NCBI GenBank assembly: GCA_016873335.1
Contig: VGXN01000008.1
Span: 1-47,063, forward strand
From: Phycisphaerae bacterium
GTDB lineage: Bacteria > Planctomycetota > Phycisphaerae > Phycisphaerales > SM1A02
Reading direction: 5' to 3'
Length of the DNA: 47,063 nucleotides
Positions 34,215 to 46,999 of this stretch are shown here, one piece after another. Position 1 is the stretch's first letter. Each line of letters starts with the position of its first letter. The notes under the pieces are model-generated. The model made no database searches. It was not told the DNA's origin and saw only the letters and a list, made by a program, of their open reading frames with translations. The translations under genes were made by a program, and so were the position numbers.

Positions 34215-35894
34215 ATGGAGTGCACGTTGTCTAGCAGTGATCTCTTTGAAATCATGTTTGGCAGCTTCCGGGTATCAAAGACCGGCACCCTACGCAGACT
34301 TTTTGCTGGCGCATTTATTAGCGCTTTTGGCACTGGAATGACGCTCTGGTTATTGCTCGTCTATTTACATGACATCCGTGGTTTCACAAATGCCTTTGGC
34401 GGATTCTTACTCTCTTATATGGCCGTTGTTGCGATTGTTTTAACTGGCCCCTCAGGTTGGTTAATTGATCGAATCGGACCAAAACCGGTAATAATCTTTG
34501 GACTATTCGTTGAAGGCAGCGCTGTGGCAGCCTGGTCAATGGTTGAAAGTAAAGAACAAGCAATCTTGGTTGGAACGCTAAGCGCAATTGGCACTTTATT
34601 GATCTGGCCAGCACAGACGGTAATGATTACTCGCTCCACTGATGAATCAGATAGACAGAGTGCATTTGCGGTTAATTTCATGATGTTAAATCTAGGTATT
34701 GCGTTTGGTGGATTAATCGCTGCAACTATTATTCAAGAAGGAAACTTAAGAAGTTTTCAGACTCTATATCTTGTCGATTCGCTCTCGTATTTTGGGTACC
34801 TATTAATGGTCTCAACGATCAAAGATAAATTTCAGGCAAGTGAAGCCGAATCTAAGAAAACCGGCGCCGGATATCGAGAAGTAATAAAAGATAAAACTTT
34901 TATGCGGATTATTCTGGGCGGATTGGGCTACATAACCTTTGGTTATGCCTCTTTACAAGCTGGATTAGCAATCTTCACAACTCAATATCTTGAGCTATCG
35001 CCAAAATGGCTCGGTTTAGTTTTTGCCGCTAACACAATAAGTATTTTCTTCTTACAAGGCTTTATGTTGCGCTGGCTGGAAAGCGTTGTAGATCTAGTCG
35101 CACTTCGAAGAGTCGGCTATCTCTGGGGCTTATCTTGGATCATTATTGGAAGCGCCTCTTTAGCATCGGGTGTAATTGCCGGAGTCTTAGTATCACTTAG
35201 CCAGGTTGCATTTGCCTTTGGCGAAATGATCTGGGCTCCCAAAGCTCCCTCAATCGTTAATCGAATTGCTCCAGAGGAACTACGTGGACGTTATAACTCA
35301 GTAATGGCGATGAATTGGAATATCGCAGCAATCATCGGAGCAGCCTTAGTTGGGCTGATGATTGGAAGTGGCCTTTACTTGGAATGGTTGATCTTGATGT
35401 TAATCGGCTCGGTACTACCGATTACGATGTTTAGATCTATCCCAGGTCTTGAAGTTAAAGAGCGAGCGATAGCAGAAAAAGCATTTGATGCAGGTGCAAA
35501 AACTGTTACCCACCTTTACAACGGAATGAAAAAAGACGGGGGATTAGTTGATTTAGTTTTAGAGCGTGACGATGTACTTTTCCAAATGATTGTTGATGAC
35601 ACCCATGTCTCAAGAGATTTAGTTAAAAAAGCTTGCGATAAAGCTATCGACAGATTGATCATCACAACCGATGCCGTTTCTGCTGCAGGACTTGGTCAGG
35701 GACGTCATCGACTTGGCGATATGGAGATTGAAATCAGAAATGGCAGAGCCGAGCGCCTTGATGGAACTTTGGCTGGCGGAATTGGCACTTTAGCTAGATC
35801 TTTAGAAATCCTGGAAGAAATGGGCTATGCCCGCGAGAAAATACTGCCTGCAGTCACAACTCGTCCGCTCAAACTGATTAACGCTCACCTATAA
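34215..35894 (+). CDS. Chimeric MFS transporter fused to C-terminal part of N-acetylglucosamine-6-phosphate deacetylase
   Basis: A 559-residue frame. Residues 1 to about 415 form a complete-looking 12-helix MFS transporter. From about residue 422 (base 35478) the sequence becomes NagA: KTVTHLYNGM, IVDDTHV, RLIITTDAVSAAG and LDGTLAGG align with the last 140 residues of the 380-residue enzyme. The metal-site His residues of that half and the catalytic Asp are kept, but the N-terminal half with the rest of the active site is missing. This looks like an in-frame deletion fusion of two adjacent genes. The deacetylase part is probably inactive; the transporter may still work. An ATG at 34254 is an alternative start. 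Confidence 0.85.
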   Translation: MECTLSSSDLFEIMFGSFRVSKTGTLRRLFAGAFISAFGTGMTLWLLLVYLHDIRGFTNAFGGFLLSYMAVVAIVLTGPSGWLIDRIGPKPVIIFGLFVEGSAVAAWSMVESKEQAILVGTLSAIGTLLIWPAQTVMITRSTDESDRQSAFAVNFMMLNLGIAFGGLIAATIIQEGNLRSFQTLYLVDSLSYFGYLLMVSTIKDKFQASEAESKKTGAGYREVIKDKTFMRIILGGLGYITFGYASLQAGLAIFTTQYLELSPKWLGLVFAANTISIFFLQGFMLRWLESVVDLVALRRVGYLWGLSWIIIGSASLASGVIAGVLVSLSQVAFAFGEMIWAPKAPSIVNRIAPEELRGRYNSVMAMNWNIAAIIGAALVGLMIGSGLYLEWLILMLIGSVLPITMFRSIPGLEVKERAIAEKAFDAGAKTVTHLYNGMKKDGGLVDLVLERDDVLFQMIVDDTHVSRDLVKKACDKAIDRLIITTDAVSAAGLGQGRHRLGDMEIEIRNGRAERLDGTLAGGIGTLARSLEILEEMGYAREKILPAVTTRPLKLINAHL

Positions 35895-35913: not shown

Positions 35914-36293
35914 GCGAAGAGTCGCCCGGATCACTGCGTTACTTAAGAGCCTAATTAACTTTTAAGCACCGAGGAAAGTCCGGACTCCAAAGAGCAAAGT
36001 GGTGGATAACATCCACCCGGAGCGATCCGCGGGAATAGTGCAACAGAAAGTAAACCGCCAATAGCAATATTGGTAAGGGTGAAACGGTGGTGTAAGAGAC
36101 CACCAGTACTGATAGCAATATCAGTAGCTATGCAAACCCCACTTGGAGCAAGACCACATAGGCCAACGTTTGAGAACGGCTCGTTCAAGTTGGCGGGTAG
36201 GTTGCTTGAGTTCGTAAGTAATTACGAACCTAGATGGATGGTGATCTCGCTAGCAATAGCAAGACAGGATCCGGCTTATAGGGCGACTCTTCT
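35914..36293 (+). ncRNA. rnpB: RNase P RNA, bacterial type A
   Basis: The catalytic RNA of RNase P, which matures tRNA 5' ends. The 5' GAAGAGTCGCCC (35916-35927) pairs with 3' GGGCGACTCTTC (36281-36292) to form helix P1. Between them are the universally conserved GAGGAAAGTCC (35971-35981), ACAGAAA (36043-36049) and the 3' end GACAGGATCCGGCTTATAGG. The length of about 380 fits. Its 3' end is repeated three more times in the window and appears to be the attachment site of the island that follows. Confidence 0.95.
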
Positions 36294-36296
36294 TAA
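36270..36296 (+). repeat. rnpB-derived attachment core, copy 1 (candidate attL)
   Basis: The 3' end of rnpB, containing GGCTTATAGGGCGACTCTTC. The same core, 23-27 bases long, recurs at 38399-38421 (-), 44975-44997 (-) and 46937-46963 (+). Here the core is joined on the left to the rnpB body and on the right to a terminator and GGGCAAA-type repeats, as expected for one end of an element integrated into rnpB. Confidence 0.85.
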
Positions 36297-36301
36297 CCAT
36301 A

Positions 36302-36330
36302 AGTGGGCGGGGGCTAAATCCCCGCTCACT
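36302..36330 (+). terminator. rnpB terminator
   Basis: AGTGGGCGGGG (36302-36312), loop GCTAAAT, CCCCGCTCACT (36320-36330), then a TTCCTATTT tail. An equivalent but diverged hairpin follows core copy 4 (46972 onward), so the terminator region is duplicated with the attachment site. Confidence 0.85.
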
Positions 36331-36367
36331 TTCCTATTTAGAAGTGTTTAGTTTTATGCAAGACTTT

Positions 36368-36429
36368 GGACAAATCTGCCGATTTATATGGGCAAATTTG
36401 TGGGCACTTGGGCAAAATCGTGGACAAAT
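36368..36429 (+). repeat. Arm-type repeats beside core copy 1
   Basis: Five short direct repeats: GGACAAAT (36368, 36422), GGGCAAAT (36390), GGGCAAAA (36410) and GGGCAC (36402). Similar GGGCAAA repeats stand beside every other copy of the core, always in the same orientation relative to it. Such iterons next to a core are typical arm-type binding sites of tyrosine integrases. Confidence 0.6.
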
Positions 36430-36465
36430 TTCCGTGAATCAATTCATCAGCGAGTACATTGAAGC

Positions 36466-36621
36466 ATGAGACTCAACAACAGTGATGGCTTCAAGTACAC
36501 CTTGCAATTGACCTGGCCGGAGATAAGTGCGATTTTCTGGCTGGTCTTTGGTTATACGTATATGCTTCCATCGATGATCATGGCCTGGCGTGAGTCGAAG
36601 CGCCTAGATAGCCAATTATGA
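36466..36621 (+). CDS. 51-residue protein with one membrane helix
   Basis: ATG 36466 to TGA 36619-36621, overlapping the ATG (36618) of the next gene. The protein begins MRLNNSDGFKYTLQL and contains one hydrophobic segment (ISAIFWLVFGYTYMLPSMIM) with a charged tail. The ATGA overlap indicates translational coupling with the following exporter. No family recognised; it is short and easily overlooked. Confidence 0.55.
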   Translation: MRLNNSDGFKYTLQLTWPEISAIFWLVFGYTYMLPSMIMAWRESKRLDSQL

Positions 36622-37076
36622 ATTTAGAAGAGTGGGGTTTACTCGGCATCTTCCTCGCTGGAGCGGTTCCATGGATGGAAGCAATTGCTGTAGTTCCCAG
36701 TGGGATCATTCTCGGGCTTGATCCCACCGCTACCGTAATTGCGGCAATACTCGGTAATGCGATTACTATCTTTCTATTCGCATATCTTGGATCAACAATC
36801 AGAGCGAAAATAATCGCGCGTCGTATAACCAAGGGAAAGTCCGCAGAATCGCCTAAATTTGATAAAGCCTCAAAAGCATTCGACAAGTATGGAATCTATG
36901 GCATGGCCTTATTGGGGCCAATCATTATTGGCACGCAATTTGCTGCGGCAGCATCTGTAGCCGCAGGAGTTAAGCCACTTAAAGTTTCATTTCTCATAAC
37001 TGCTAGCATGATTCTTTGGGCAACGTTGATTGCGGTCGTGATGGTTGCCTTCGACCTGTCCTTCCAATTGATCTAG
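36618..37076 (+). CDS. Small multidrug export family protein (PF06695 type)
   Basis: A 152-residue membrane protein with LAGAVPWMEAIAVVPSGIILG near the start and YGIYGMALLGPIIIGTQFAAAASVAAG in the second half, matching the COG2426/small multi-drug export family related to DedA-like proteins. The role and substrate are not established. Second gene of a three-gene set with the 51-residue protein and the DUF418 protein, all within the left arm of the island. Confidence 0.75.
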   Translation: MNLEEWGLLGIFLAGAVPWMEAIAVVPSGIILGLDPTATVIAAILGNAITIFLFAYLGSTIRAKIIARRITKGKSAESPKFDKASKAFDKYGIYGMALLGPIIIGTQFAAAASVAAGVKPLKVSFLITASMILWATLIAVVMVAFDLSFQLI

Positions 37077-37085
37077 GAGATAGAA

Positions 37086-38237
37086 ATGCAGAGAGATATA
37101 GCACCAGATGTCTTACGAGGATTCGCGCTCCTAGGAATCCTTGTCGTAAACATCCAATTCATGGGACTAGATAGCGAAGAGGGAGCGCGTGGCGAGTGGT
37201 TGTCTGGTGGCGCTAACGGGGCTGCCGGATTCATAATGGCAGCTATCTTTGCTGGAAAGTTCTATCTTCTCTTTTCATTTCTATATGGATACAGCTCGGC
37301 CTACATAATCAAGGATGATCGGGCAAATAGAGGTCGTTGGATAAGGCGTTGCTTTGCCTTGATGCTCTTTGGGGCGCTTCATTTCACCTTCCTATGGCAC
37401 GGAGACATTATTTTTCTATACGGGCTTTTGGGATTACTCCTTCTCGCCATCTTCTTTAGGTCAGACAGGACTTTGCAGATCTGGACTCGTGTCATTTACA
37501 TAGTGTCTGCAGTATTCATTTCCTTGATTGGAATTCTTCTTCTAATTGGTGAGTGGTATTTCCCGCAAGAAACAACCGCTGAAGTGAATGAGCCAAGACT
37601 CAATCAAGTGCTTCGAGATGGGGCCTTTCTGGAGGCAGTTGGGCCACGGGTCGAGCTCTGGGTCTTCGGCCTCGTAACTGGAATTTTCCTTCAAGGGGGA
37701 ATGGCCTTTGCAGCATTTCTGCTCGGAGTTAGGATGGCAAGAAGCAAGTTCCTGACTTCTCTGATTGATCGAGTTCAAAATTCCCAGATGATTAAACGGG
37801 GTCTCATCTTCGGACTTCCGATTCAATTTGGTGCTGCATTCGTTATGGTAAGAAATGAGCAATCGGTTGATCCCTCCGAAGCACTTTATCTATGTTGCTT
37901 ATTCCTAGCGTTTTTAGCCGCCCCCTTGTTGTCTATGGCATATGTTGGCGTGATCCGTAAATTTGTTGAAGAGAGACCGGGATTAGTCGCCTGGATGAAA
38001 CCAGCAGGCAAAATGTCATTAACTGTTTACATTTTGCAATCAGTGGTTACATCTTTGCTCCTCAGCCCGTGGGGATTGGGACTATTCCAAGAGCTGCAGA
38101 CCTGGCAAGTTTTCTTGCTTGCGATAGGCATATGGATTGCTTTGGTATTTTTCGCAACCCAATGGCTGAAGAAATTCCAGCAAGGTCCGCTTGAGTCGCT
38201 TATGGGAACCTTAACGAGGCCCCGTCTACCCAAATAG
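37086..38237 (+). CDS. DUF418/YeiB-family membrane protein
   Basis: A 383-residue polytopic protein. RDIAPDVLRGFALLGILVVNIQFM at the N-terminus and the C-terminal AGKMSLTVYILQSVV...LLSPWGLGLF are the hallmarks of the YeiB/DUF418 family, related to acyltransferase-3 and heparan-glucosaminide acetyltransferase folds. Ribosome-binding site AGGAG about 7 bases before the ATG. The function is unknown; it may transfer acyl groups across the membrane. Confidence 0.85.
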   Translation: MQRDIAPDVLRGFALLGILVVNIQFMGLDSEEGARGEWLSGGANGAAGFIMAAIFAGKFYLLFSFLYGYSSAYIIKDDRANRGRWIRRCFALMLFGALHFTFLWHGDIIFLYGLLGLLLLAIFFRSDRTLQIWTRVIYIVSAVFISLIGILLLIGEWYFPQETTAEVNEPRLNQVLRDGAFLEAVGPRVELWVFGLVTGIFLQGGMAFAAFLLGVRMARSKFLTSLIDRVQNSQMIKRGLIFGLPIQFGAAFVMVRNEQSVDPSEALYLCCLFLAFLAAPLLSMAYVGVIRKFVEERPGLVAWMKPAGKMSLTVYILQSVVTSLLLSPWGLGLFQELQTWQVFLLAIGIWIALVFFATQWLKKFQQGPLESLMGTLTRPRLPK

Positions 38238-38262
38238 TCCACAATGAAGCGTAAATCGTGAG

Positions 38263-38301
38263 TTTGCCCGTTTTTCTGCCTGTTGCCCGATTTATTTGCC
38301 C
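38263..38301 (-). repeat. Arm-type repeats beside core copy 2
   Basis: TTTGCCC at 38263 and 38295 and TTGCCC at 38283, that is GGGCAA(A) on the minus strand, downstream of the inverted core and its terminator. The order core, terminator, GGGCAAA repeats is the same as at rnpB. The 359-base gap 38238-38596 otherwise holds core copy 2, its hairpin and the promoter of the Fur-family gene. Confidence 0.6.
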
Positions 38302-38361
38302 ATTTTTGTTGACCAATTTGATATCAGTTTTGTCAGAAATGATTCCAAAAGAAATAATGAA

Positions 38362-38388
38362 ACGAGGCGGGAATATCTCCCGCCTCGT
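38362..38388 (-). terminator. Hairpin next to core copy 2
   Basis: ACGAGGCGGGA (38362-38372), loop ATATC, TCCCGCCTCGT (38378-38388): 11 perfect base pairs. On the minus strand it follows the rnpB-like core exactly as the real rnpB terminator does and is followed by TTCATTATTTC. On the plus strand it could end the DUF418 message. Confidence 0.8.
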
Positions 38389-38398
38389 CTAATTTAAA

Positions 38399-38421
38399 GA
38401 AGAGTCGCCCTATAAGCCGGA
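38399..38421 (-). repeat. rnpB-derived attachment core, copy 2 (inverted)
   Basis: GAAGAGTCGCCCTATAAGCC on the plus strand plus GGA: the reverse complement of the rnpB 3' end. It is in direct orientation with copy 3 (44975-44997); the pair bounds the 6.6-kb zinc module. Confidence 0.9.
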
Positions 38422-38596
38422 CATAGAGTAAGACGGATCTTTTGCGCTGACAAGAACCTCCTTGTCCAGAAATTTGCCCTTAAGTTCAGGAGTTAATAGA
38501 TCGTCTGTCCTTGTGCTTCTCCTCAGCTTCAACCGCCGCTCCAACCGTACACAAGACAACGAAGAGGGGAACCACTCATAACCTACAATTGTTGTT

Positions 38597-39055
38597 ATGG
38601 AAAGAATTGCGAAGCAGCCTAAAGAACGTAGAAGTTCGACGAGACGCGAAATAATCTTGGCTCTTCTTATTGAAAGCAAGTCATTTTTGAGTTCGCAGGA
38701 GATACATAAATTACTATCAAGACAAGAAGTATCTATTGGACTTGCCACAGTCTATCGACAACTTGAAGGCTTGGTGGAGCAAGGGCGAGCGGATGCAATT
38801 GTCAGTCCCAGCGGAGAGCGGTTATATAGACATTGTGGGCAAGCAGAAACACATCACCATCACATAATTTGCCGCGTTTGTGGCGCTGCAACCGAGCTCG
38901 ACTTCCCAGAGGTGGAAATAATCACTCAAACTTACGCCAAGCGTTACAAGTACAAATCTGTTACCCACTCCTTAGAGATTTTTGGAGTTTGCCTAGCTTG
39001 TGATCGTCTTCAAAGCTCCTCGATAAAATCAAGAAGGAAACCGAAGCTCTCATAA
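38597..39055 (+). CDS. zur: Fur-family regulator, probably Zur
   Basis: A 152-residue Fur-fold repressor. The winged helix contains QEVSIGLATVYRQLEGLVEQGRAD, the regulatory metal site HHHHIICRVCG and the structural CxxC pair continues in GVCLAC. In company with zinc uptake genes and a zinc-type operator at 39551-39567 it is most likely the zinc regulator. A TACAAT -10 box lies about 12 bases before the ATG, so its message is probably leaderless. Its 3' end overlaps the convergent GNAT gene by 46 bases. Confidence 0.85.
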   Translation: MERIAKQPKERRSSTRREIILALLIESKSFLSSQEIHKLLSRQEVSIGLATVYRQLEGLVEQGRADAIVSPSGERLYRHCGQAETHHHHIICRVCGAATELDFPEVEIITQTYAKRYKYKSVTHSLEIFGVCLACDRLQSSSIKSRRKPKLS

Positions 39056-39549
39056 AGATTTCTAGCTTTTAGATTTGTCTCATCTGTGTACACCCACGCC
39101 CTATCACAACCAAATTCCTGCATATTAGTGAGAGCTTCAGAAACAAGAAAAGCCCCTACTCCATTTCTTCTAAATTGTTCTAAGACTCCAAGAACATAAA
39201 TTTCGCAGGGTGCTGCGCCCATCAACTGGTGATGCTTAAGCCAGAAATACGCTATGGGATTTCCCTGATGTAAGAGAACTTGGATATCTGACTCTGATCG
39301 AAGACTTTCGTTGAGTTGAATTAGCAACTTACCCGTAGTCCACGCGCCCTGATCGGGGTGTCCGAAGAAAATTTCATTGTTCAACTTCAACAACATGTCT
39401 TCATCCCGACTTCTCTGAAATGCAACCAACTCGCATGCCTCTGGGAGATGGGCTGTGTAGGCAACTTTGTTGACCAAATCAAGCTGGTATCTGAAAATCC
39501 GCCTCGGGAGCAACTGGGACAGTTTGTTGACTTCATCAATCATGGGCAT
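39010..39549 (-). CDS. GNAT acetyltransferase resembling the C-terminal half of mycothiol synthase
   Basis: A protein of about 179 residues. [20 protein letters not shown] and [20 protein letters not shown] match the second GNAT domain of MshD, which acetylates Cys-GlcN-Ins in mycothiol synthesis; only one domain is present here instead of two. The frame extends upstream to 39567, but those codons (a run of Ile) are the Zur box itself, so ATG 39549 or 39543 is the real start. It is transcribed divergently from the CobW gene through the Zur box and may help adapt thiol-bound zinc to shortage (inference). Confidence 0.7.
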
Positions 39550-39550
39550 T

Positions 39551-39567
39551 ATGATAATGATTATCAT
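39551..39567. promoter_or_regulatory. Zur box (zinc operator) in a divergent promoter
   Basis: ATGATAATGATTATCAT is a perfect 8-1-8 palindrome matching the actinobacterial Zur-type consensus TGAnAATGATTnTCA. It lies between the GNAT gene (minus) and the CobW gene (plus), so one dimer pair could control both. It is 20 bases before the CobW ATG. Confidence 0.85.
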
Positions 39568-39586
39568 TATTTATACAAGGAGCGCT

Positions 39587-40600
39587 ATGAACGATTCACG
39601 AATTCCCGTAACGGTACTCACCGGATTCCTGGGGTCTGGAAAGACAACTCTGCTCAACCGCATTCTGAACGAAAACCACGGGATGCGTATCGCAGTTATT
39701 GAAAATGAGTTTGGTGAGGTAGGTATTGATGACGCTCTCGTTATGGCCGCGGATGAAGAAATATTTGAGATGAACAATGGCTGTATATGCTGCACTGTAC
39801 GGGGTGATTTGATACGAATTCTTGGCAACCTTCTACAACGCAAAGACAAATTTGATCGAATCTTGATCGAGACAACCGGAATGGCTGATCCTGCTCCAGT
39901 CGCGCAGACATTTTTTGTCGACGATGAGCTGAAGGAATCTTGCAGATTAGATGCGATTATTACCATGGTTGACGCTAAGCATGCTCTACAGCACTTAACT
40001 GAGATCAAAGAAAAGAACTTTGAGAACGAAGCTGTTGAACAGGTTGCGTTTGCAGATCGCATTGTTTTGAATAAGGTAGATATCGCCACTCCAAAAGAGC
40101 AAAGTGAGGTCGTAGCGGAAATAAAGAAAATAAACTCAGCTGCACCCATTTTTACAGCAGAGAATGCAAATGTCGACCTAAAGGAACTACTTGATATTGG
40201 TGCTTTTGATTTGCAAAAAGTTCTTGACAATGATCCAGCATTCTTGATTGATACCGACCATGTACATGATTCGTCCATCTCCAGTGTAGGTATTGAATTG
40301 ACTGGTAACCTCGATATTGAAAAATTGAATAAGTGGCTCGGAAAGTTGCTTGGCGAAAAAGGAACGGATATTTTTCGTAGTAAAGGAATCCTCTCAATTG
40401 ATGGAAATGAGGAGAGATATTGCTTTCATGCTGTTCACATGCTCTTTAGTGGTGAATTCACATCTGCCTGGGGTAAGTCTGAGCGCATCAACAAGATGGT
40501 CTTTATAGGACGAAATCTCAATCGCAAAGAACTAACAGATGGCTTCAAGAAGTGCATAGTTTCCAGCAAAACCTCAAAAACTTTGGCTGGCAAGAAGTGA
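39587..40600 (+). CDS. CobW/ZNG1-family zinc-chaperone GTPase
   Basis: A 337-residue G3E GTPase starting at ATG 39587 with the ribosome-binding site AAGGAGC; a longer upstream frame runs through the Zur box and is not used. P-loop GFLGSGKTT (13-21), the metal site [12 protein letters not shown] (Cys66, Cys68, Cys69), switch region [10 protein letters not shown], and NKVD guanine motif. The C-terminal CobW domain follows. Under Zur control such proteins deliver zinc to client enzymes in zinc shortage. First gene of the plus-strand zinc operon. Confidence 0.92.
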
Positions 40601-41604
40601 TTGCTGTTTCAACTCCATTACCCATGTCAGTCAACATAAATCCAATTGATGCCTGCTCTCTTGATGATGAACGAGTTCTTTTGTTGGACGCTGAAGGACA
40701 TATATGTGAAGTCTTCCTCACTAGTCGTGAAGTAACTTTGAAGTGTGAGGCCTCAGTTGGTGGAAATCGCATTTCCTTGTCACCCAACCGTGAGATTCTC
40801 GCATGTGCAGGACCCGAGGGATTCGCTCTATTTAAAAGTGATGATGGGACATTACTTGAGTCTCGACGCGGTTCGTGGTCTTCGGTTGCAAAGTGGCATG
40901 ATTCTGGAAACAGAGTTCTCTTCACTTTTGGTAAAAGTATCTGTGTTACTGATTCATACGGAGTTCCTATTGTCGAAAGCGAGAACTTTTCATCTACGGT
41001 AACGGATGCCTCTTGGATTGGGGACAAAATCGCCGTAGCTGCATACGGTGGGGTAAGCGTTTCAGATGAGCAAGGAAGCAAATTCATTAAGCGGGAGTTT
41101 GTTGGATCATTACTGTGCTTGAGTGCCTCGCCAACTGGAGACTGGATTGTAAGTGGTAATCAGGATGCATCCCTTCAGGTCTATAAAGTTTCCGATGACA
41201 CGCGATTGGAAATGCAAGGTTTTCCTCGCAAGGTAACTATTGCTGAGTTCAATCTTGATGGTAAGTGGTTGGCAAATAATGGCGCTGATGAAGTAACTGT
41301 TTGGAGCTTTGCGGGAAAGGGTCCTAAAGGCCGCTCCCCTGTAATTCTGCCGAAACACGTTGGGGGTGGCACAGCCATTTCCTGGAGCAAGACTGATGCT
41401 AACTTGATTGCAACTGGAGATTCAATTGGTCAATTACGAGTCTGGGATTTGAAACTTGGTTTAGAAGGTAAACCCTTGTACCCCCGAAACCACTTTGAGT
41501 CTATGTCTAACTCTCCAGTTAAGTCGATTCTTTGGGATTCACACGGAAGTTCAATCATTGCTGTACATCATGATGGCATCATCTACCGGAGAGAGACTTC
41601 GTGA
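40552..41604 (+). CDS. WD40-like beta-propeller protein
   Basis: A 350-residue protein with several WD40-type blades, for example [47 protein letters not shown] and [25 protein letters not shown]. No signal peptide, so cytoplasmic. WD40 proteins are often found beside CobW and zinc ABC genes, where they may assist metal transfer; their role is unsettled. The GTG at 40552 overlaps the CobW gene by 49 bases; a later start is possible. The end overlaps znuC (GTGA). Confidence 0.8.
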
Positions 41605-42323
41605 GCCATGCTCTCCTTGAGGCCCGCAACCTCTACGTGTACAGAGGTGACAGATTGGTCCTCTCTCAGGTTTCGTTTGAGTTTAGTGGCGGTGAACAGG
41701 TTGCTCTGATCGGCCAAAATGGGTCCGGGAAGACAACTCTTTTGATGGCCCTTGCCGGCATCACAAAATATGAAGGGGAAATGTTCTACCAAAATAAACC
41801 TTGCCACCACGGCGAGCACCGGCAACAAATTGGATATGTTCCACAAAGATCCCAGGTCCGATGGGATTTACCATTACAAGTTCTCGATGTAGTTAAATCC
41901 GGTACAGCGGGCAATCCTCACCTAAAGGGATGGGTTCACAAAAGAGAGCGTGAGGAGAGGGCATATCAGGCGCTTCGACAGGTCAGTGCACTTCCTTTGG
42001 CGAAGCGAAGAATCAATAGTCTCTCTGGTGGACAAGCCCAGAGGGTTTTAATCGCCCGCAGCCTTGTATCAAGTCCCGACATACTCCTTTTAGATGAGCC
42101 ATTTGCTGGCCTAGATGCACAGGCCCTTGACCGGATTGTCGATGTGCTGCACGAAAAGTCGCAGGAGGGCACCCTTGTTGTAGCCGCCATGCATGAGTTA
42201 GACATCGTGCAGTCATCGTTCCAACGCGCCATTCTCATTGAGAGTCAGAGCAGGCTTATTGATGGGCCGCCAAACGAGATTTTAGATAGTCACTCCAGGA
42301 GAGTTCGGGTGGCGACGCCCTAA
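41601..42323 (+). CDS. znuC: Zinc ABC transporter ATPase ZnuC
   Basis: A 240-residue ABC ATPase with Walker A GQNGSGKTT, signature LSGGQAQRVLIA, Walker B ILLLDEPFAGLD, and the metal-transporter-type Q-loop GYVPQRSQV. GTG start at 41601 overlaps the WD40 stop, and its TAA overlaps the ATG of znuB. The family imports zinc or manganese; zinc is chosen from the Zur box and the CobW neighbour. Confidence 0.92.
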   Translation: MSHALLEARNLYVYRGDRLVLSQVSFEFSGGEQVALIGQNGSGKTTLLMALAGITKYEGEMFYQNKPCHHGEHRQQIGYVPQRSQVRWDLPLQVLDVVKSGTAGNPHLKGWVHKREREERAYQALRQVSALPLAKRRINSLSGGQAQRVLIARSLVSSPDILLLDEPFAGLDAQALDRIVDVLHEKSQEGTLVVAAMHELDIVQSSFQRAILIESQSRLIDGPPNEILDSHSRRVRVATP

Positions 42324-43177
42324 TGAATCTTTATGACATCTTGATCGCGCCATTTGATTACTCATTCATGCGAAATGCTCTCATTGCTGTTTTGATAGCC
42401 GGAGTCTTGGCGCCGATCTCTGGTTTCTGGGCTCTGAATAGACGAATGGTTTACCTGATGGATGCCATGTCACACTCGGTTCTCCCGGGAGTCATTTTGG
42501 CAACTCTCTGGGGCTTCAGCTATCTCTACGGCGGACTTCTCGCAGCTTTACTGCTGACGGCCATCGTATTTTTTTTGGCAAAAAAAGAGCGTGCCCCTGA
42601 GGATGGCGCCATCGGAGTGGGCGCCCAAACCCTCTTTGCTGCTGGAGTAATTCTGGCTTCGAAAAGCTCGGACTCGCGAAGTTTCAATCACATCCTTTTT
42701 GGAAATCCTTTTGCAATTGATTCTTCAGCTATCGCGCTCATGTTTTCCACGGCGATAGTTGCGATTCTTCTCCTAGGCTCAATGCAATCTAAATTGGTTG
42801 CATCCACTTTTGATCATGAACATGCTGAGGCAATTGGTGTGAAAGTGAAGTGGGTTGATCTAGTCCTAATTCTTGCATTGGCATGCACCACGGTTGTTGG
42901 CCTTAGCTCTGTTGGAGTGCTTATGACAATCTCACTAAGCGTCACTCCAGCCGTCACCATGAGAGTTTTAAAGGTCTCCTTCATGAAAGCTCGCTACGGG
43001 TGCGTGTTAGTGGGTGGCCTATCCGGGTTATTCGGCATCTTATTCTCGTACCACTTCGGTGTCCCTGCTGGACCAACAGTTGCATTGACTTGTACCGCAA
43101 TCCTCATTGCCAGCATTTTTTACATATACGCAAAGACTCTTTTTCTATCCAGCAAGAAGAGGGAGGTCACAGTATGA
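42323..43177 (+). CDS. znuB: Zinc ABC transporter permease ZnuB
   Basis: A 284-residue membrane protein of the ZnuB/MntB family with eight to nine helices. Typical features are SGFWALNRRMVYLMDAMSHSVLPGV, the IGVGAQTLFAAGVIL segment and GLSSVGVLMTISLSVTPAVT. It forms the channel with ZnuC. Overlaps by one base with znuC and by four with the next gene. Confidence 0.92.
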   Translation: MNLYDILIAPFDYSFMRNALIAVLIAGVLAPISGFWALNRRMVYLMDAMSHSVLPGVILATLWGFSYLYGGLLAALLLTAIVFFLAKKERAPEDGAIGVGAQTLFAAGVILASKSSDSRSFNHILFGNPFAIDSSAIALMFSTAIVAILLLGSMQSKLVASTFDHEHAEAIGVKVKWVDLVLILALACTTVVGLSSVGVLMTISLSVTPAVTMRVLKVSFMKARYGCVLVGGLSGLFGILFSYHFGVPAGPTVALTCTAILIASIFYIYAKTLFLSSKKREVTV

Positions 43178-43587
43178 GCAGAAAACTTGGTCGTATTGTG
43201 CTGTGTAGGGGTTGTTGCTGTGGGGTTGCTCCTGGTCGCTCCCAAGGGGCGGCGCATCGCATTGAACGGCTAGAAACGCTCAAAAACTCAGGTTTCGAAG
43301 TTACCACCTCTGAGTGTCTCGGCCCTTGCGCCCTCGGTGACATGCTCGTCTTCGTCCCCGGAAAAGAAGTTGCAAATCTAGGCGCTGCAGGCAGGCCGGT
43401 AGGCCGGAGGCGTCCACTCTGGTTTATGGGAATGCATCTCGATTCACTAAACGAACTTTTCATCGAGTGGATTCTCGCTAACCAGTCCTGGGCAGATGAA
43501 AAATTTGCGCTTCTGCGCAAGCAGCAGTACCAACCTAAAAACGACAACAGAAAGGCAATAAATGAGCACTTATCGTGCGTATCGTAA
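43174..43587 (+). CDS. Thioredoxin-like [2Fe-2S] ferredoxin-domain protein
   Basis: A 137-residue protein from ATG 43174 (ribosome-binding site GGGAGG). It has Cys11, Cys14, Cys15 and Cys16 in LCRGCCCGV and Cys48 and Cys52 in TSECLGPCALG, the spacing of thioredoxin-like [2Fe-2S] ferredoxins, with an unusual three-Cys run. It overlaps znuB (4 bases) and znuA (26 bases), so it is firmly inside the zinc operon. A role as a metal-binding or redox helper of zinc uptake is inferred; the family in this setting is not well described. Confidence 0.75.
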   Translation: MSRKLGRIVLCRGCCCGVAPGRSQGAAHRIERLETLKNSGFEVTTSECLGPCALGDMLVFVPGKEVANLGAAGRPVGRRRPLWFMGMHLDSLNELFIEWILANQSWADEKFALLRKQQYQPKNDNRKAINEHLSCVS

Positions 43588-44560
43588 AGCTAGGACCTCT
43601 CTAGTACTCGCTTTAGTTGTAGCGATGGGACTTTTGGTTTCTTCGTGTTCAAGCGCTACCAACACGAGCCAAGCAAATCTCAAACTCGTGGGAAATTTCT
43701 ATCCGATTACCTGGCTGGTTGAGCGGATTGCGGGAGATGCGGCTGACGTGACATCTCTGACTCCAAATGGTGTCGAACCGCACGACTTACAGCTCGACGC
43801 AAAGTCTGTAGCACTGATACAAGAGGCAAATTTAGTTTTCTATCTCGGGCTAGAGTTTCAACCTGAGGTAGAAAAAGCTATCAGCCAATTAGCTGACACC
43901 TCAAAGGCCATTGATCTTCTGAAGTCGCCCGGCGTAACTCTTTTGGATGTAAAGGAGGAAGAGGATGGGCACGACCATGAAGAAGGTGAAGATCACGACC
44001 ATGAGGGAGAAAAGGATGTTGAGCACAAACATCCTCTAGCTGGAGGCAAAGATCCTCACGTTTGGCTCGATCCAGCCAACATGACTTTGATGGCTAAGGC
44101 AATTAGTAGTGAGCTTAAGAAAATCGCCCCAGATTTCACAGAGACATTTGAATCCAACCTCAGCGCACTTGAGGGAGAGTTAAATGGTCTGGATAACGAT
44201 ATCTCCTCACAGCTTGCAAATTGCGAAATAAAGACTGTAGTGACTTCTCATGCAGCTTTCCTCTACTTCACCGAGAAATATGGTTTTGAGCAATTAGCTA
44301 TTGCGGGCATCAGCCCAGAGGATGAGCCAGATGCTAAACGCCTCGCTGGTATCGCCGACTCTGCTAAAGATGCAAAAGTGAAAACCGTATATTTCGAGGA
44401 GGTATTGTCACCAGCACTTGCCAAGACGGTGGCTCAAGAAGTTGGAGCAGAACTTAGTTTCCTTTCAGCTCTGGAATTCGTGCCTGAGAGCGGCGACTAC
44501 ATCTCACAAATGAGGAGCAATCTTCAAAATCTCTTCGTAGGACAAGGCTGTAGTAAGTAA
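43562..44560 (+). CDS. znuA: Zinc ABC transporter binding lipoprotein ZnuA
   Basis: A 332-residue cluster A-I binding protein. Lipobox LLVSSC gives a lipid-anchored Cys29. Zinc ligands appear in NGVEPHDLQL, DPHVWLDPAN and VTSHAAFLYF; the ligand-site loop has a His/Asp/Glu-rich stretch (GHDHEEGEDHDHEG) as in zinc-specific ZnuA. It captures zinc for ZnuBC. Its ATG lies inside the end of the ferredoxin-like gene. Confidence 0.93.
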   Translation: MSTYRAYRKARTSLVLALVVAMGLLVSSCSSATNTSQANLKLVGNFYPITWLVERIAGDAADVTSLTPNGVEPHDLQLDAKSVALIQEANLVFYLGLEFQPEVEKAISQLADTSKAIDLLKSPGVTLLDVKEEEDGHDHEEGEDHDHEGEKDVEHKHPLAGGKDPHVWLDPANMTLMAKAISSELKKIAPDFTETFESNLSALEGELNGLDNDISSQLANCEIKTVVTSHAAFLYFTEKYGFEQLAIAGISPEDEPDAKRLAGIADSAKDAKVKTVYFEEVLSPALAKTVAQEVGAELSFLSALEFVPESGDYISQMRSNLQNLFVGQGCSK

Positions 44561-44567
44561 AAAAACG

Positions 44568-44612
44568 ATCCTGCTTCCACTTAACTCTGTATACGTTAAG
44601 TGGAAGCAGGAT
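44568..44612 (+). terminator. 18-bp perfect hairpin after znuA
   Basis: ATCCTGCTTCCACTTAAC (44568-44585), loop TCTGTATAC, and its exact complement (44595-44612), preceded by an A-run and followed by ATTTAT. It ends or attenuates the zinc operon before the last gene, and lies 7 bases before that gene's ribosome-binding site. Confidence 0.85.
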
Positions 44613-44629
44613 ATTTATCGAGGAGTAGT

Positions 44630-44905
44630 ATGAACTTCGTTTCCGCCAACAAGGAAGGTTCTTCTGGCAAGTCACCTCATGTTCGCAGAATAAGAGAGTT
44701 TGTTCGCGAAATTATTTTTGACACTGAAGCGAATGTTATGGTTACTGAATTAGCCTGCCTTGAGCCGGGATGCCCTCCTATTGAAACCGCAATAGTAATC
44801 ATGGGCAAAATACCCAAAACCTATAAAATAGACAAAGAAATGAAAGACGTGAACTTAGAGGATGTTCGCCAAGTCCTTACTGGCGGTAATGACCATAATC
44901 ATTAA
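44630..44905 (+). CDS. Conserved small protein with CLEPGCPPIET motif, unknown
   Basis: A 91-residue soluble protein from ATG 44630 with a good ribosome-binding site (GAGGAG). It contains VMVTELACLEPGCPPIETAI and ends with a His-containing tail GGNDHNH. I recall similar CxxxxCPPxET proteins near metal-handling GTPases but cannot name the family. The two cysteines and terminal histidines suggest metal binding. Last gene of the zinc module, before core copy 3. Confidence 0.65.
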   Translation: MNFVSANKEGSSGKSPHVRRIREFVREIIFDTEANVMVTELACLEPGCPPIETAIVIMGKIPKTYKIDKEMKDVNLEDVRQVLTGGNDHNH

Positions 44906-44974
44906 GTCCTTTTGAAGAGGACTCTTGGTCACCATTGGGGATGCGCTGCTTGAACTCATATTGAGAGCCGTTTG

Positions 44975-44997
44975 GAAGAGTCGCCCTATAAGCCGGA
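44975..44997 (-). repeat. rnpB-derived attachment core, copy 3 (inverted)
   Basis: The same 23 bases as copy 2, in the same orientation, 6,576 bases away. Recombination between copies 2 and 3 would release the zinc module as a circle. Confidence 0.9.
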
Positions 44998-45043
44998 GAC
45001 GACATCTTTATGTTTATGCGTGAGAGCACGCTCGAGAAATGTA

Positions 45044-45062
45044 ATTGCCCTCAACTTTGCCC
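45044..45062 (-). repeat. Arm-type repeats beside core copy 3
   Basis: TTGCCCTCAA and TTTGCCCTCAA in tandem (45045-45066), GGGCAA(A) on the minus strand, upstream of the inverted core. The gap 44906-45161 otherwise holds a weak AGTCC/GGACT hairpin after the last zinc-module gene and the attachment core; I see no gene in it. Confidence 0.55.
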
Positions 45063-45161
45063 TCAAATAGTTAACATGCATTAGAGCAAATTGGAAACTT
45101 ATAAAACTGCAGTTAACTTGAAGTAGGCGCATTCGAGCGACCTTAACTCACAACCAAGTCT

Positions 45162-45569
45162 TCAGATGAGTAGGCTAACTCCTACACCTATTGCGCTTAG
45201 TCCAAGCATGATTGCACCAAGTGGGATCAGCTTGATGAGCGGTGTTGTGGAACCACCCGCTGTGCGAGGAGCTCCACCAAAGAAACCGCCAGAAATCAAC
45301 AATGGCGCTGCAAATAATCCAATCCTTAGCGCCCAAGTAATCGTTTCATTAAACCTAGAATCATCAAGAAGGATCTGGCCAACGATTGCAAGAAGTACTA
45401 GAACTCCTGCATGAGCATGTCCTGCACGGAAGTAATCACGCTGTTCTGATGTGACATTCTCAGTGCCAGCTTGGCGCTTGAGAATTGACAGTAAGAAGTA
45501 ACCGCCAAAGGCGATTGTGGGTAACGAGATGAAAGCAAGGGCATTCATCCAGCGCGCTGCATCAGTCAT
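45162..45569 (-). CDS. Small four-helix membrane protein (paralogue of 396-809)
   Basis: A 135-residue membrane protein nearly three-quarters identical to the protein at 396-809, including DAARWM...ALAFISLPTIA and the RDYFRAGHAHAGVLVLLAI centre. ATG start at 45569. The function is unknown. One copy lies just left of the catabolic island and this copy lies within the rnpB island, so the gene may travel with mobile DNA. Confidence 0.75.
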   Translation of the reverse strand: MTDAARWMNALAFISLPTIAFGGYFLLSILKRQAGTENVTSEQRDYFRAGHAHAGVLVLLAIVGQILLDDSRFNETITWALRIGLFAAPLLISGGFFGGAPRTAGGSTTPLIKLIPLGAIMLGLSAIGVGVSLLI

Positions 45570-45587
45570 TTCTTTGAATTGTCGCCT

Positions 45588-45797
45588 TTATCTCCCCAGG
45601 ATACACCCGAGGCAAAGAGGATTCGGTTTCCAGAAATAGGAGAAATAAATCCAAACCGCAAGGGAGGCGAAGAAGCAATTCCAGAAGTATTTCCGCGCGA
45701 GGGCTTTATCTTCGGCTTCCTTAGAAAACAGTCCCCACCCAAAAACTAGAAAAGAAAAGATTCCCGAGCCAATTACTCCCACCCACAATTCTTTCAT
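45588..45797 (-). CDS. Small membrane protein, unknown
   Basis: A 69-residue protein from ATG 45797 (MKELWVGVIGSGIFSF) with two hydrophobic segments and an aromatic-rich end (WIYFSYFWKPNP). The open frame extends to 45842, but those codons are made of GGACAAAT-type repeats and are unlikely to be coding. No family recognised. Confidence 0.5.
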   Translation of the reverse strand: MKELWVGVIGSGIFSFLVFGWGLFSKEAEDKALARKYFWNCFFASLAVWIYFSYFWKPNPLCLGCILGR

Positions 45798-45822
45798 CAT
45801 TCCAAAACTATCTCTTGTTTTG

Positions 45823-45839
45823 TCCAAAATTTGTCCAAA
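45823..45839 (-). repeat. Paired TTTGTCCAAA repeats
   Basis: TTTGTCCAAA twice in tandem (read as GGACAAA on the minus strand), the same variant as found beside core copy 1 at 36368 and 36422. Possibly arm sites of a recombinase. Confidence 0.45.
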
Positions 45840-45942
45840 CACGCTAGAAACAAGGTGGTATTAGAAGGAATTAGTAGAACAAGATAAGTTTGTTTTGAGG
45901 GTAAATTGATACAAAGAGAAGCTAGGAGAAACCACTAAGAGG

Positions 45943-45986
45943 GACTGGGGGTCATGTGGTCGGAGGTTCAAATCCTCTCGTCCCGA
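45943..45986 (+). mobile_element. 3' half of a tRNA-Pro(GGG) gene: probable integration scar
   Basis: GACTGGGGGTC looks like an anticodon arm with anticodon GGG; GGAGG-TTCAAAT-CCTCT is a proper T arm; CGTCCCG followed by A is the 3' acceptor strand with the A discriminator of proline tRNAs. The 5' half (D arm and CGGGACG strand) is missing upstream. Such 3' tRNA halves are left when an element integrates into a tRNA gene. The 363-base gap 45843-46205 contains this scar and repeats but no gene. Confidence 0.75.
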
Positions 45987-46082
45987 CTGTCTGAACTGCG
46001 GTTATCTTGATTTCATTTCTTACTCCTAGTCTCGATACCACTCTTCGCCTTATCAAGGAATTCCTCACGCACTAGACCACTT

Positions 46083-46131
46083 TTAGACCAAATTAGACCA
46101 AATTAAAGGCACCAAAAAATTTAATAGACCA
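46083..46131 (+). repeat. TTAGACCAAAT repeats near the tRNA scar
   Basis: TTAGACCAAAT occurs twice in tandem (about 46083-46103) and a third AATAGACCAA near 46122. They differ from the GGGCAAA repeats at the rnpB cores and lie about 100 bases from the tRNA-Pro fragment, so they may be arm sites of a different integrase. Confidence 0.55.
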
Positions 46132-46205
46132 ACCTCTGCTAAGACTTTAGGGTGCGTTTTTTAGGGAATATTGGACACCATGGACCCTCATGTTGTTTTT
46201 AACCG

Positions 46206-46649
46206 CTAAATTTTTAATGTGCGCGGCCATGTCCAAGCGGAGCGCAGGATGAAGGCCAGGAGCAGCACCTCGATTCCGATGGAGAGGCCGTAGAAGGACG
46301 CCCAGTCCCAAGATTCCCCTACTGCGTTGAACACCGTGACGGGGATGTAAAGCGATGCCACGACTAGGTTCGTGGTGCGGTTCACCCGGGCGGGGAGCGC
46401 CATTGAGAGTACGACCATCAGGGCCGGGATCGCGATCACCGCGAGGAACACGGTCAACAACGTCGGGCTGATGTCGAACTCGAAGACGATGCCAGCCCGG
46501 ATGTCGTCGACGATGCCAGGTTTGTAGAGGTGGAAGACGTCGACGTAGATATAAAGGAACATGAAGCTTGTCCATGCGGCGGCGAGCTTGGCCTGCACGG
46601 GGATCGGCGGGCTGTCGAGCAGGTTCGGGGTTTTCGTTTGGATGGTCAT
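46206..46649 (-). CDS. DUF6326-like membrane protein, GC-rich and probably foreign
   Basis: A 147-residue protein with four hydrophobic segments: KLAAAWTSFMFLYIYVDVFHLY, an IPALMVVLSMALPARVNR segment, and a final LLLAFILRSAWTWPR, matching the DUF6326 family. The function is unknown. Its coding sequence is visibly richer in G+C than everything around it, which marks it as a recent arrival. A second frame on the same strand is Arg/Pro/His-rich and is a composition artefact. Confidence 0.75.
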   Translation of the reverse strand: MTIQTKTPNLLDSPPIPVQAKLAAAWTSFMFLYIYVDVFHLYKPGIVDDIRAGIVFEFDISPTLLTVFLAVIAIPALMVVLSMALPARVNRTTNLVVASLYIPVTVFNAVGESWDWASFYGLSIGIEVLLLAFILRSAWTWPRTLKI

Positions 46650-46879
46650 CCGTTCTTCTTTCTAGAGGAGATGTCTGTTTCTTGGTTGTCACTCGATTAT
46701 CAAAGTAGGTGGGCAAGCGCCACATCCTAATACGTACTAGGAGATTTTTGCAAATCGCTGTGGCTTATGGTTCATCACAGATAGAGAGATTTTTTCCGAC
46801 TTTACAATTTATTTGACCGATAGGGAGATCTTTGCGGGAGTAAAAAGGTAAAAAATGACATTCAATTACATTTAGAAAC

Positions 46880-46900
46880 GGGCAAAAATAGCGGGCAAAA
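46880..46900 (+). repeat. Arm-type repeats beside core copy 4
   Basis: GGGCAAAA at 46880 and 46893, upstream of core copy 4 and in the same orientation. The 287-base gap 46650-46936 shows no gene; it is AT-rich apart from the promoter side of the GC-rich gene. Confidence 0.6.
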
Positions 46901-46936
46901 TAATATTTACGCTCAAAAACTCGCCCCTTGACTGCG

Positions 46937-46963
46937 TCCGGCTTATAGGGCGACTCTTCTTAA
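46937..46963 (+). repeat. rnpB-derived attachment core, copy 4 (candidate attR)
   Basis: The same 27 bases as the rnpB 3' end, 10,667 bases downstream and in the same direction, followed by a diverged copy of the rnpB terminator (from 46972) and then the shared TTTTAGTTTTATGCAAGAC. This is the other end of the island and probably the original sequence downstream of rnpB. Confidence 0.85.
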
Positions 46964-46971
46964 ATAGTAGG

Positions 46972-46999
46972 TGGGCGGAGGTCAAATCTCTGCTCACTT
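46972..46999 (+). terminator. Second copy of the rnpB-type terminator
   Basis: TGGGCGGAG, loop GTCAAAT, CTCTGCTCA followed by CTTTCC: the same architecture as 36302-36330 with several compensatory or G-U changes. Confidence 0.7.

Follow-up and report, generated by a model that had tools for sequence, protein, structure and literature searches.

A family of elements with a tyrosine integrase very probably uses the 3′ end of rnpB, the gene of RNase P RNA, as its attachment site in the order Nanopelagicales (freshwater acI actinobacteria), and the DNA analysed here is a composite member of the arrays formed there. This stretch, called the window below, is the complete contig C8 (VGXN01000008.1; 47,063 nucleotides) of the bin G000, filed as a Phycisphaerae bacterium (GCA_016873335.1). 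Genomes, contigs and loci are designated by the letters G, C and L. According to the mechanism that we propose, the rnpB 3′ end would serve as a chromosomal attachment site, with crossover within a core of up to 26 bp. An incoming unit would bring an identical core and often, behind it, a terminator hairpin of its own; each insertion would thereby rebuild a complete rnpB. Tandem arrays would grow as further units insert at the rnpB core or at cores within the array, and these units would be exchanged between genomes. That recombination takes place at the cores themselves we infer from the comparisons described below.

The 23-mer TCCGGCTTATAGGGCGACTCTTC, which ends rnpB, has four mismatch-free copies within the window, and an earlier note, made from the sequence alone, had placed all four exactly; none of 100 shuffles of the window contained a match with three or fewer mismatches. 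As the note had also said, copies 1 and 4 are direct repeats spaced 10,667 bases apart, and the segment is therefore bordered, like a genomic island, by direct repeats of the rnpB 3′ end; the contig stops 104 bases past copy 4. Outside the window copies, no further core (20-mer, up to three mismatches) was found in bin G000. The likeness between copies 1 and 4 extends for another 85 nt at 79% identity, running through a strong hairpin, and both ends therefore carry an rnpB-type terminator. A unique native terminator at copy 4, proposed in the note, is not established: copies 1 and 2 also carry a hairpin. Tandem GGGCA repeats were looked for around all four window cores and are present after copies 1 and 2 and before copies 3 and 4, with none after copy 3 nor before copy 2.

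The contig is probably a Nanopelagicales contig placed in the wrong bin. Its rnpB is 95.7% identical to that of G135, a member of this order, and aligns with the second rnpB of bin G000 (C1:32741-33108) over just 140 bases, at 72% identity. The window TldD protein shares up to 82% identity with proteins from actinobacterial metagenome-assembled genomes, and the core was found in 15 of the 24 genomes behind the TldD loci. The kin of G000 (G001-G060) are absent from the 296 genomes searched below.

A census of the core was conducted in 296 genomes of the Nanopelagicales, the order of G076 (SCGC AAA027-J17), with a 20-base query and up to two mismatches. The core is present in 185 genomes, with at least three copies in 67, a maximum of eight and a total of 431; the genomes without a match are partly incomplete or carry a diverged core. 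The earlier note had proposed a search for repeated rnpB 3′ ends in other genomes, and at least two cores are indeed found in 113 of the 296. As a control, the core pattern read backwards gave one match, in G107. With the same settings, a 19-base piece of the 5′ portion of rnpB matched 183 genomes, with two copies in 14 and more in none. Since the core is multiplied and the 5′ piece never exceeds two copies, it is the end of the gene that is multiplied, not the gene. Arrays also occur in chromosome-sized contigs of 1.16-1.55 Mb (G119, G147, G149, G201, G303 and G319-G321). In 40 of the 74 minus-strand matches listed for the 5′ piece, a contig start is no more than 700 bases away; assemblies often break off just behind rnpB, and arrays are therefore easily missed.

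The conserved core has sharp edges and a length of 24-26 nt throughout the order. In 136 non-redundant flanks, positions 0-23 are conserved at 93-100% and positions 24-25 at about 76%, with background values beyond; positions 0-19 are biased by the search and positions 20-23 unbiased. The 3′ strand of helix P1 of the RNase P RNA lies within this core (up to 26 bp, TCCGGCTTATAGGGCGACTCTTCTTT). Some cores lie away from the rnpB array: L296 (G212:C1:347004), where the core precedes a pair of helix-turn-helix (HTH) genes that rnpB arrays also contain, L297 (G334:C2:558203 and 569586) and L298 (G096:C51:22604). They are either secondary sites or translocated units. In L185 (G102:C19), two rnpB copies stand about 8 kb apart on the same contig, with cores behind each, reflecting either a strain mix or a real duplication.

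The regions fetched for closer analysis were mostly picked for multiple cores, and the following figures therefore describe arrays, not average genomes. The first 40 loci contain 103 segments between successive same-strand cores, 80 of them shorter than 1.5 kb. Of these short segments, 56 carry one open reading frame (ORF) of at least 50 amino acids, 13 carry two, four carry more and seven none; cassettes of integron style, with one gene and one recombination site, are thus found across the arrays. The longest ORF runs in the direction of rnpB in 56 of the 73 ORF-bearing segments (binomial p 5e-6, related cassettes not being independent), and in nine cases its stop codon falls within the next core. 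The distance from gene edge to core is often 5-35 bases. Extended to 73 loci, the analysis gave 139 segments of 93 bp to 12.6 kb (median 794 bp), of which 103 are under 1.5 kb.

The cargo is diverse. In a chosen sample of 60 of 94 cassette proteins, 67 Pfam families were matched, each in at most three members; those listed include GNAT, ASCH, SMR transporter, EamA, nucleotidyltransferase, epimerase, phosphotransferase and metallo-beta-lactamase fold. A few cassette proteins match PADLOC models, mostly those of candidate systems.

Comparison of the loci points to mobility of the units. There are 18 DNA families of units present in at least two loci, and in 49 comparisons their neighbours differ in 41 and agree in eight. 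For example, L177 and L187 share a stretch of 1,162 bp that is 99.7% identical; the other array units cannot be aligned, and the two loci otherwise align only at rnpB (97.9%), in one 253-base stretch (88%) and in core-sized pieces. Pairs of empty and occupied sites were identified by an automatic rule in 12 comparisons among 59 loci, several of them across species, and empty sites are thus found in relatives. In the cleanest pair (L179 and L180), an insert of 4,104 bp extends from core to core between flanks that are 95% identical before and 93% after it. An insert of 1,139 bp distinguishes L262 from L177 (flanks 96% and 93%). L225 and L253 differ by two inserts, one of 634 bp and one, made of two units, of 1,095 bp, both at cores other than that of rnpB; flank identity at the 634 bp insert is 97% before and 79% after. 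Pairs with 83-88% identity before and 77-80% after the insert involve more distant genomes and are weaker. These pairs, and the integrase elements of relatives described next, support the claim of the earlier note that the incoming core restores the end of the rnpB RNA.

A candidate recombinase was found in G193. Here, two cores enclose an element of 11.1 kb whose genes include a tyrosine integrase of phage type (PF00589, SAM-like domain at the N terminus), HTH_17 genes resembling excisionase, a primase-like gene and a restriction-modification pair of type III. Relatives with at least 47% identity were identified at seven loci of the 296 genomes (in G193, G107, G138, G255, G265 and two in G251), and all seven lie on contigs with an rnpB-type core. 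Four of the integrases end about 30-310 bp before a core (L295, L310, L306 and L307). The contig end truncates both G251 integrases, the core of G265 has two mismatches, and the contigs of G107, G138 and G255 (L343, L344 and L345) carry rnpB and its core, with no second core found on the stretch. An integrase piece of 61 amino acids in G329 (56% identity) stands outside the seven placed loci; the remaining matches have 24-30% identity. In the tree, six linked integrases form one clade (support 100/100), the shorter piece of G251:C12 having been left out.

Arm-like repeats accompany some of the cores. Tandem GGGCA (at least two GGGCA with a spacing of 8-14 bp, within 200 bp of a core) occurs downstream of 37 of 207 cores and upstream of 28 of 205, compared with 36 of 3806 random stretches of the same loci. 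The repeats are located about 100-150 bp to the right or 45-60 bp to the left of the core. In many cases the upstream pair is followed by a motif of the type CACGCATAAC..GTCGTC, which recurs before unrelated cargo. Around this minority of cores, the layout resembles an attP with arm-type sites, and the linked integrase may bind the GGGCA repeats. Under the proposed mechanism, rare autonomous elements (4.8 and 11.1 kb for the two with both ends found) would carry the integrase near their right end. Most units would lack it: some would be cargo islands in which arm-like repeats are retained, others bare cassettes of a single gene with a core on either side. The linked integrase could move cassettes in trans; bare cassettes might arise and move through this activity or through recombination with an arm-bearing neighbour.

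Two explanations dispense with a dedicated integrase. XerC and XerD recombine pdif modules of Acinetobacter plasmids, and the host enzymes might recombine the rnpB cores in the same manner, XerC/D-like proteins being the sole PF00589 matches in several array genomes. We consider this very unlikely in view of the phage-type arm-like repeats at some cores, the dedicated integrase clade at the core and the identity of the core with the rnpB end. The arrays might also have formed without any site-specific recombination, by duplication of rnpB-end fragments and their spread through homologous recombination of flanking DNA. Repeated cores could drive unequal crossing-over, and arrays do vary among related genomes; however, conservation ends sharply at the core, the inserts extend from core to core, an integrase is linked to them, and 26 bp is short for RecA exchange. 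This makes the second explanation extremely unlikely.

Several observations weigh against the attachment of integrase elements at rnpB, the reading that we prefer. The linked integrase was found in only six of the 296 genomes, and most arrays are therefore without it now. The window contig itself has no tyrosine recombinase or integrase by ORF and family scans (PF00589), and the three PF00589 loci of G000 all lie on other contigs. A rough integrase HMM, itself built partly from wrong-frame rows, gave no match in 40 array loci and the window; this negative is weak, and the scans just named back it for the window alone. Among 13 array genomes besides G000, eight have exactly two PF00589 matches, G076 has one and four have three or four; the matches of G076 and of the two-match genomes are read as XerC/XerD. 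A poorly related integrase (24%) also lies about 2 kb from a core in G125:C57. Under the test described above, tandem GGGCA was not found downstream of 170 of the 207 cores and upstream of 177 of the 205. Searches of IMG/VR gave neither the core, as a 23-mer or a 17-mer, nor a relative of the linked integrase. Finally, the inverted order of the window could be a misassembly.

In the window, the proposed mechanism would have produced an integrase-free array of the form core 1, unit A, core 2 (inverted), zinc-uptake cluster, core 3 (inverted), unit C, core 4. Unit A has right-type arms at both ends and unit C left-type arms at both ends; they are therefore best read as two elements, one on each side of the zinc cassette, that a later inversion rearranged. 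The breakpoints of this putative inversion would lie inside both A and C.

The earlier note had described a single island of 36.3-46.9 kb between attL and attR. Integration at the rnpB 3′ end is upheld by the empty and occupied sites and the integrase elements of relatives. The segment itself carries no integrase, and its second and third cores are inverted unit ends with their own hairpin or arm repeats; it is therefore not one simple attL-attR island. The four cores stand; the island that they were taken to mark is one composite case among tandem arrays found throughout the order. The earlier interpretation is thus partly supported, right in kind and too narrow. A single conventional island (attL 36270, attR 46937), with the internal cores as leftovers of nested insertions, would fit the direct repeats formed by copies 1 and 4, the right-type arms after copy 1 and the left-type arms before copy 4. 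We regard it as unlikely, since the two internal copies each come with a hairpin or arms and their end motifs recur elsewhere at independent units, and G135 holds pieces of the window in another arrangement. This genome carries three ends of the window, those with DUF6326 (95%), with Zur (94%) and with core 3 (96%). The DUF6326 and core-3 ends lie about 22 kb apart on C15 with other genes between them, and the Zur end is on contig C1 beside another cassette. These rearranged pieces speak for modular exchange and show that the order seen in the window is not a fixed one.

An artefact of assembly, in which two arrays were joined at their repeats, would concern the arrangement of the window and leave the arrays of the order untouched. 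The contig lies in the bin of another lineage and ends 104 bp after a repeat, and a chimeric join would give the same arm symmetry of A and C. Inverted cores are nevertheless also present on other contigs (three in L177 and one in L187), and we hold an artefact to be improbable. The features of the window are listed in table 1.

Table 1. Features of the window, with positions on the 47,063-nucleotide contig.
Feature	Position	Strand	Remarks
rnpB, RNase P RNA class A	35918-36294	+	Infernal RF00010, 323.4 bits; last 25 nt form the attachment core
Core copy 1, rnpB end, rnpB/element junction	36270-36295 (23-mer 36270-36292)	+	exact match
Terminator-type hairpin after core 1	36301-36331	+	-22.5 kcal/mol, z -4.3
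Three GGGCA repeats after core 1	36390-36414	+	candidate arm-type sites
Small membrane protein, Sm_multidrug_ex/VTT-like	36618-37076	+	look-alike behind last core of L187
DUF418 (YeiB-like) membrane protein	37086-38237	+	look-alike behind last core of L306
Three GGGCA repeats after core 2	38265-38301	-	
Terminator-type hairpin after core 2	38360-38390	-	-24.5 kcal/mol, z -6.9
Core copy 2, inverted	38399-38421	-	exact match
Fur-family regulator, probably Zur-like	38597-39055	+	PF01475, 1.3e-23; further matches all below cut-off
GNAT acetyltransferase	39010-39567	-	
CobW/G3E GTPase, metallochaperone type	39587-40600	+	
WD40/beta-propeller protein	40552-41604	+	
Zinc-type ABC transporter ATPase	41601-42323	+	AztA best, below cut-off
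Zinc-type ABC transporter permease (ABC-3)	42323-43177	+	AztB best, below cut-off
Small protein, no family match	43174-43587	+	
ZnuA-type zinc-binding protein	43562-44560	+	PF01297, 3.5e-73
Small protein, no family match	44630-44905	+	
Core copy 3, inverted	44975-44997	-	exact match
Two GGGCA repeats before core 3	45046-45062	-	with recurring end motif CACGCATAA..GTCGTC
Small membrane protein, no family	45162-45569	-	
Small membrane protein, no family	45588-45842	-	
DUF6326 protein	46206-46649	-	within a 56% GC stretch; region 95% shared with G135:C15, adjoining a core
Two GGGCA repeats before core 4	46880-46897	+	
Core copy 4, element/downstream junction	46937-46959	+	exact match
Terminator-type hairpin after core 4	46969-46999	+	-21.5 kcal/mol, z -4.8

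The units of the window contain two to nine genes. The interval between copies 2 and 3 is a zinc-uptake cluster with a Fur/Zur-type regulator, a CobW-type GTPase, an ABC transporter ATPase and permease, and ZnuA; the two other stretches encode small membrane proteins, DUF418 and DUF6326. Unit C also contains a fragment resembling a tRNA 3′ end, GGTCGGAGGTTCAAATCCTCTCGTCCCGACT, with tandem AGACCAAATT repeats nearby (45958-45988 and 46080-46105). A tRNA search of the window found no tRNA gene, though this 3′ fragment is visible. The fragment looks like the att end of a tRNA-targeted element and is a possible inversion breakpoint. Just before rnpB, a single ORF (34215-35894, plus strand) joins an MFS transporter (first ~400 amino acids) to an apparent C-terminal part of NagA. 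In L036 and G135, a longer gene with this NagA-like ending is located before rnpB; the joined frame would stem from a deletion that fused two genes or from misassembly near 35.48 kb.

Other carriers and recombinases were considered. Carriage of the core by phages was rejected on the IMG/VR result given above. The integrase search of GenBank phages matched 1538 records, with every best place below 60% identity and the ten listed at 27-29%. A resident serine recombinase was rejected, PF00239 being present in just one of 25 array genomes, and so was a small integrase family, A1, which occurs in 25 of the 296 genomes and has no core (up to four mismatches) in 27 fetched loci. Several members of this second, small integrase family (~250-315 amino acids; L245, L246 and L248) lie near tRNA-Lys or tRNA-Arg genes; it probably marks other island hot spots of the Nanopelagicales.

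The analysis was extended to 394 genomes of the class, members of the Nanopelagicales among them, with no 5′ control. Some genomes outside the order carry their own rnpB end twice on a single contig, and nine such pairs, picked by eye, were followed up with one single end. In G447, G538, G662 and G655, about 10-18 kb separate the copies, and an integrase lies about 30-760 bp from the core; in the tree, these integrases group in a clade of their own (100/99). G404 and G671 gave integrase matches that are weak or partial, and G443, G676 and G546 gave none. On these sequence matches, the use of rnpB as a target appears not to be peculiar to the Nanopelagicales lineage.

If mobile units, many of them a single gene, dock at an RNA gene that is essential and always present, streamlined freshwater actinobacteria would have a compact means, comparable to integrons, of keeping and exchanging variable genes. 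The orientation of the cassettes suggests that they may be read from the rnpB promoter, although the hairpins behind many cores speak against simple read-through. The Prochlorococcus rnpB promoter has been used elsewhere for efficient expression, according to passages of PMC8776855. We tentatively suggest, as a possibility short of an even chance, that rnpB is an integron-like platform, in which its constitutive promoter would drive docked one-gene cassettes and an integrase provided in trans by the rare autonomous elements would shuffle them. If true, some of the most abundant freshwater bacteria would have a shared adaptive gene pool. The integrase named here is a testable candidate for the recombinase of the arrays. 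Among the RNA genes that serve for integration, rnpB is an addition, and other actinomycetes have a second clade of integrases linked to it.

Literature searches, with most subscription journals and supplements outside their scope, gave no report of integration or cassette arrays at rnpB. Passages of PMC9569102 describe predicted extra rnpB copies in mycobacteria, with no island there, and those of PMC6582537 contain nothing on rnpB integration. Tandem islands marked by repeats of tRNA ends are known, also in streamlined aquatic bacteria, as described in parts of the reports on Methylopumilus fGI-2 (PMC10872708) and Actinomarinales fGI1 (PMC7771536), the main texts of which do not mention rnpB or RNase P. 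The additive flexible genomic islands in these accounts target tRNA genes, whereas the arrays described here use rnpB, have units down to about 0.1-0.2 kb, often of one gene, and have an identified linked integrase clade and arm-like repeats. The tycheposons of Prochlorococcus (passages of PMC10872708) are likewise tyrosine-recombinase elements with nutrient-acquisition cargo. They measure 4-200 kb and lie at tRNA genes; here the target is rnpB, not a tRNA gene, and the units are often below 1 kb. Islands and prophages at the 3′ ends of tRNA and tmRNA genes, as presented in parts of PMC12884075, PMC10654092 and PMC8092301, share the tyrosine integrase and the core that restores the RNA 3′ end; neither rnpB nor RNase P occurs in these main texts, their supplements lying outside the scope.

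The resemblance to integrons lies in the compact arrays of often one-gene cassettes, running mostly in one direction from a fixed entry point, and in cassettes common to genomes in differing order. The differences concern the site, which is the 3′ end of an essential RNA gene and not attI/attC, and the recombinase, which is not of the IntI type: the window contig has no PF00589 match, and the linked enzyme is phage-type with an N-terminal SAM-like domain and rare in the genomes. Tandem islands at tRNA ends were already known; the literature searched gave no account of an rnpB platform, and the architecture of the arrays is integron-like.

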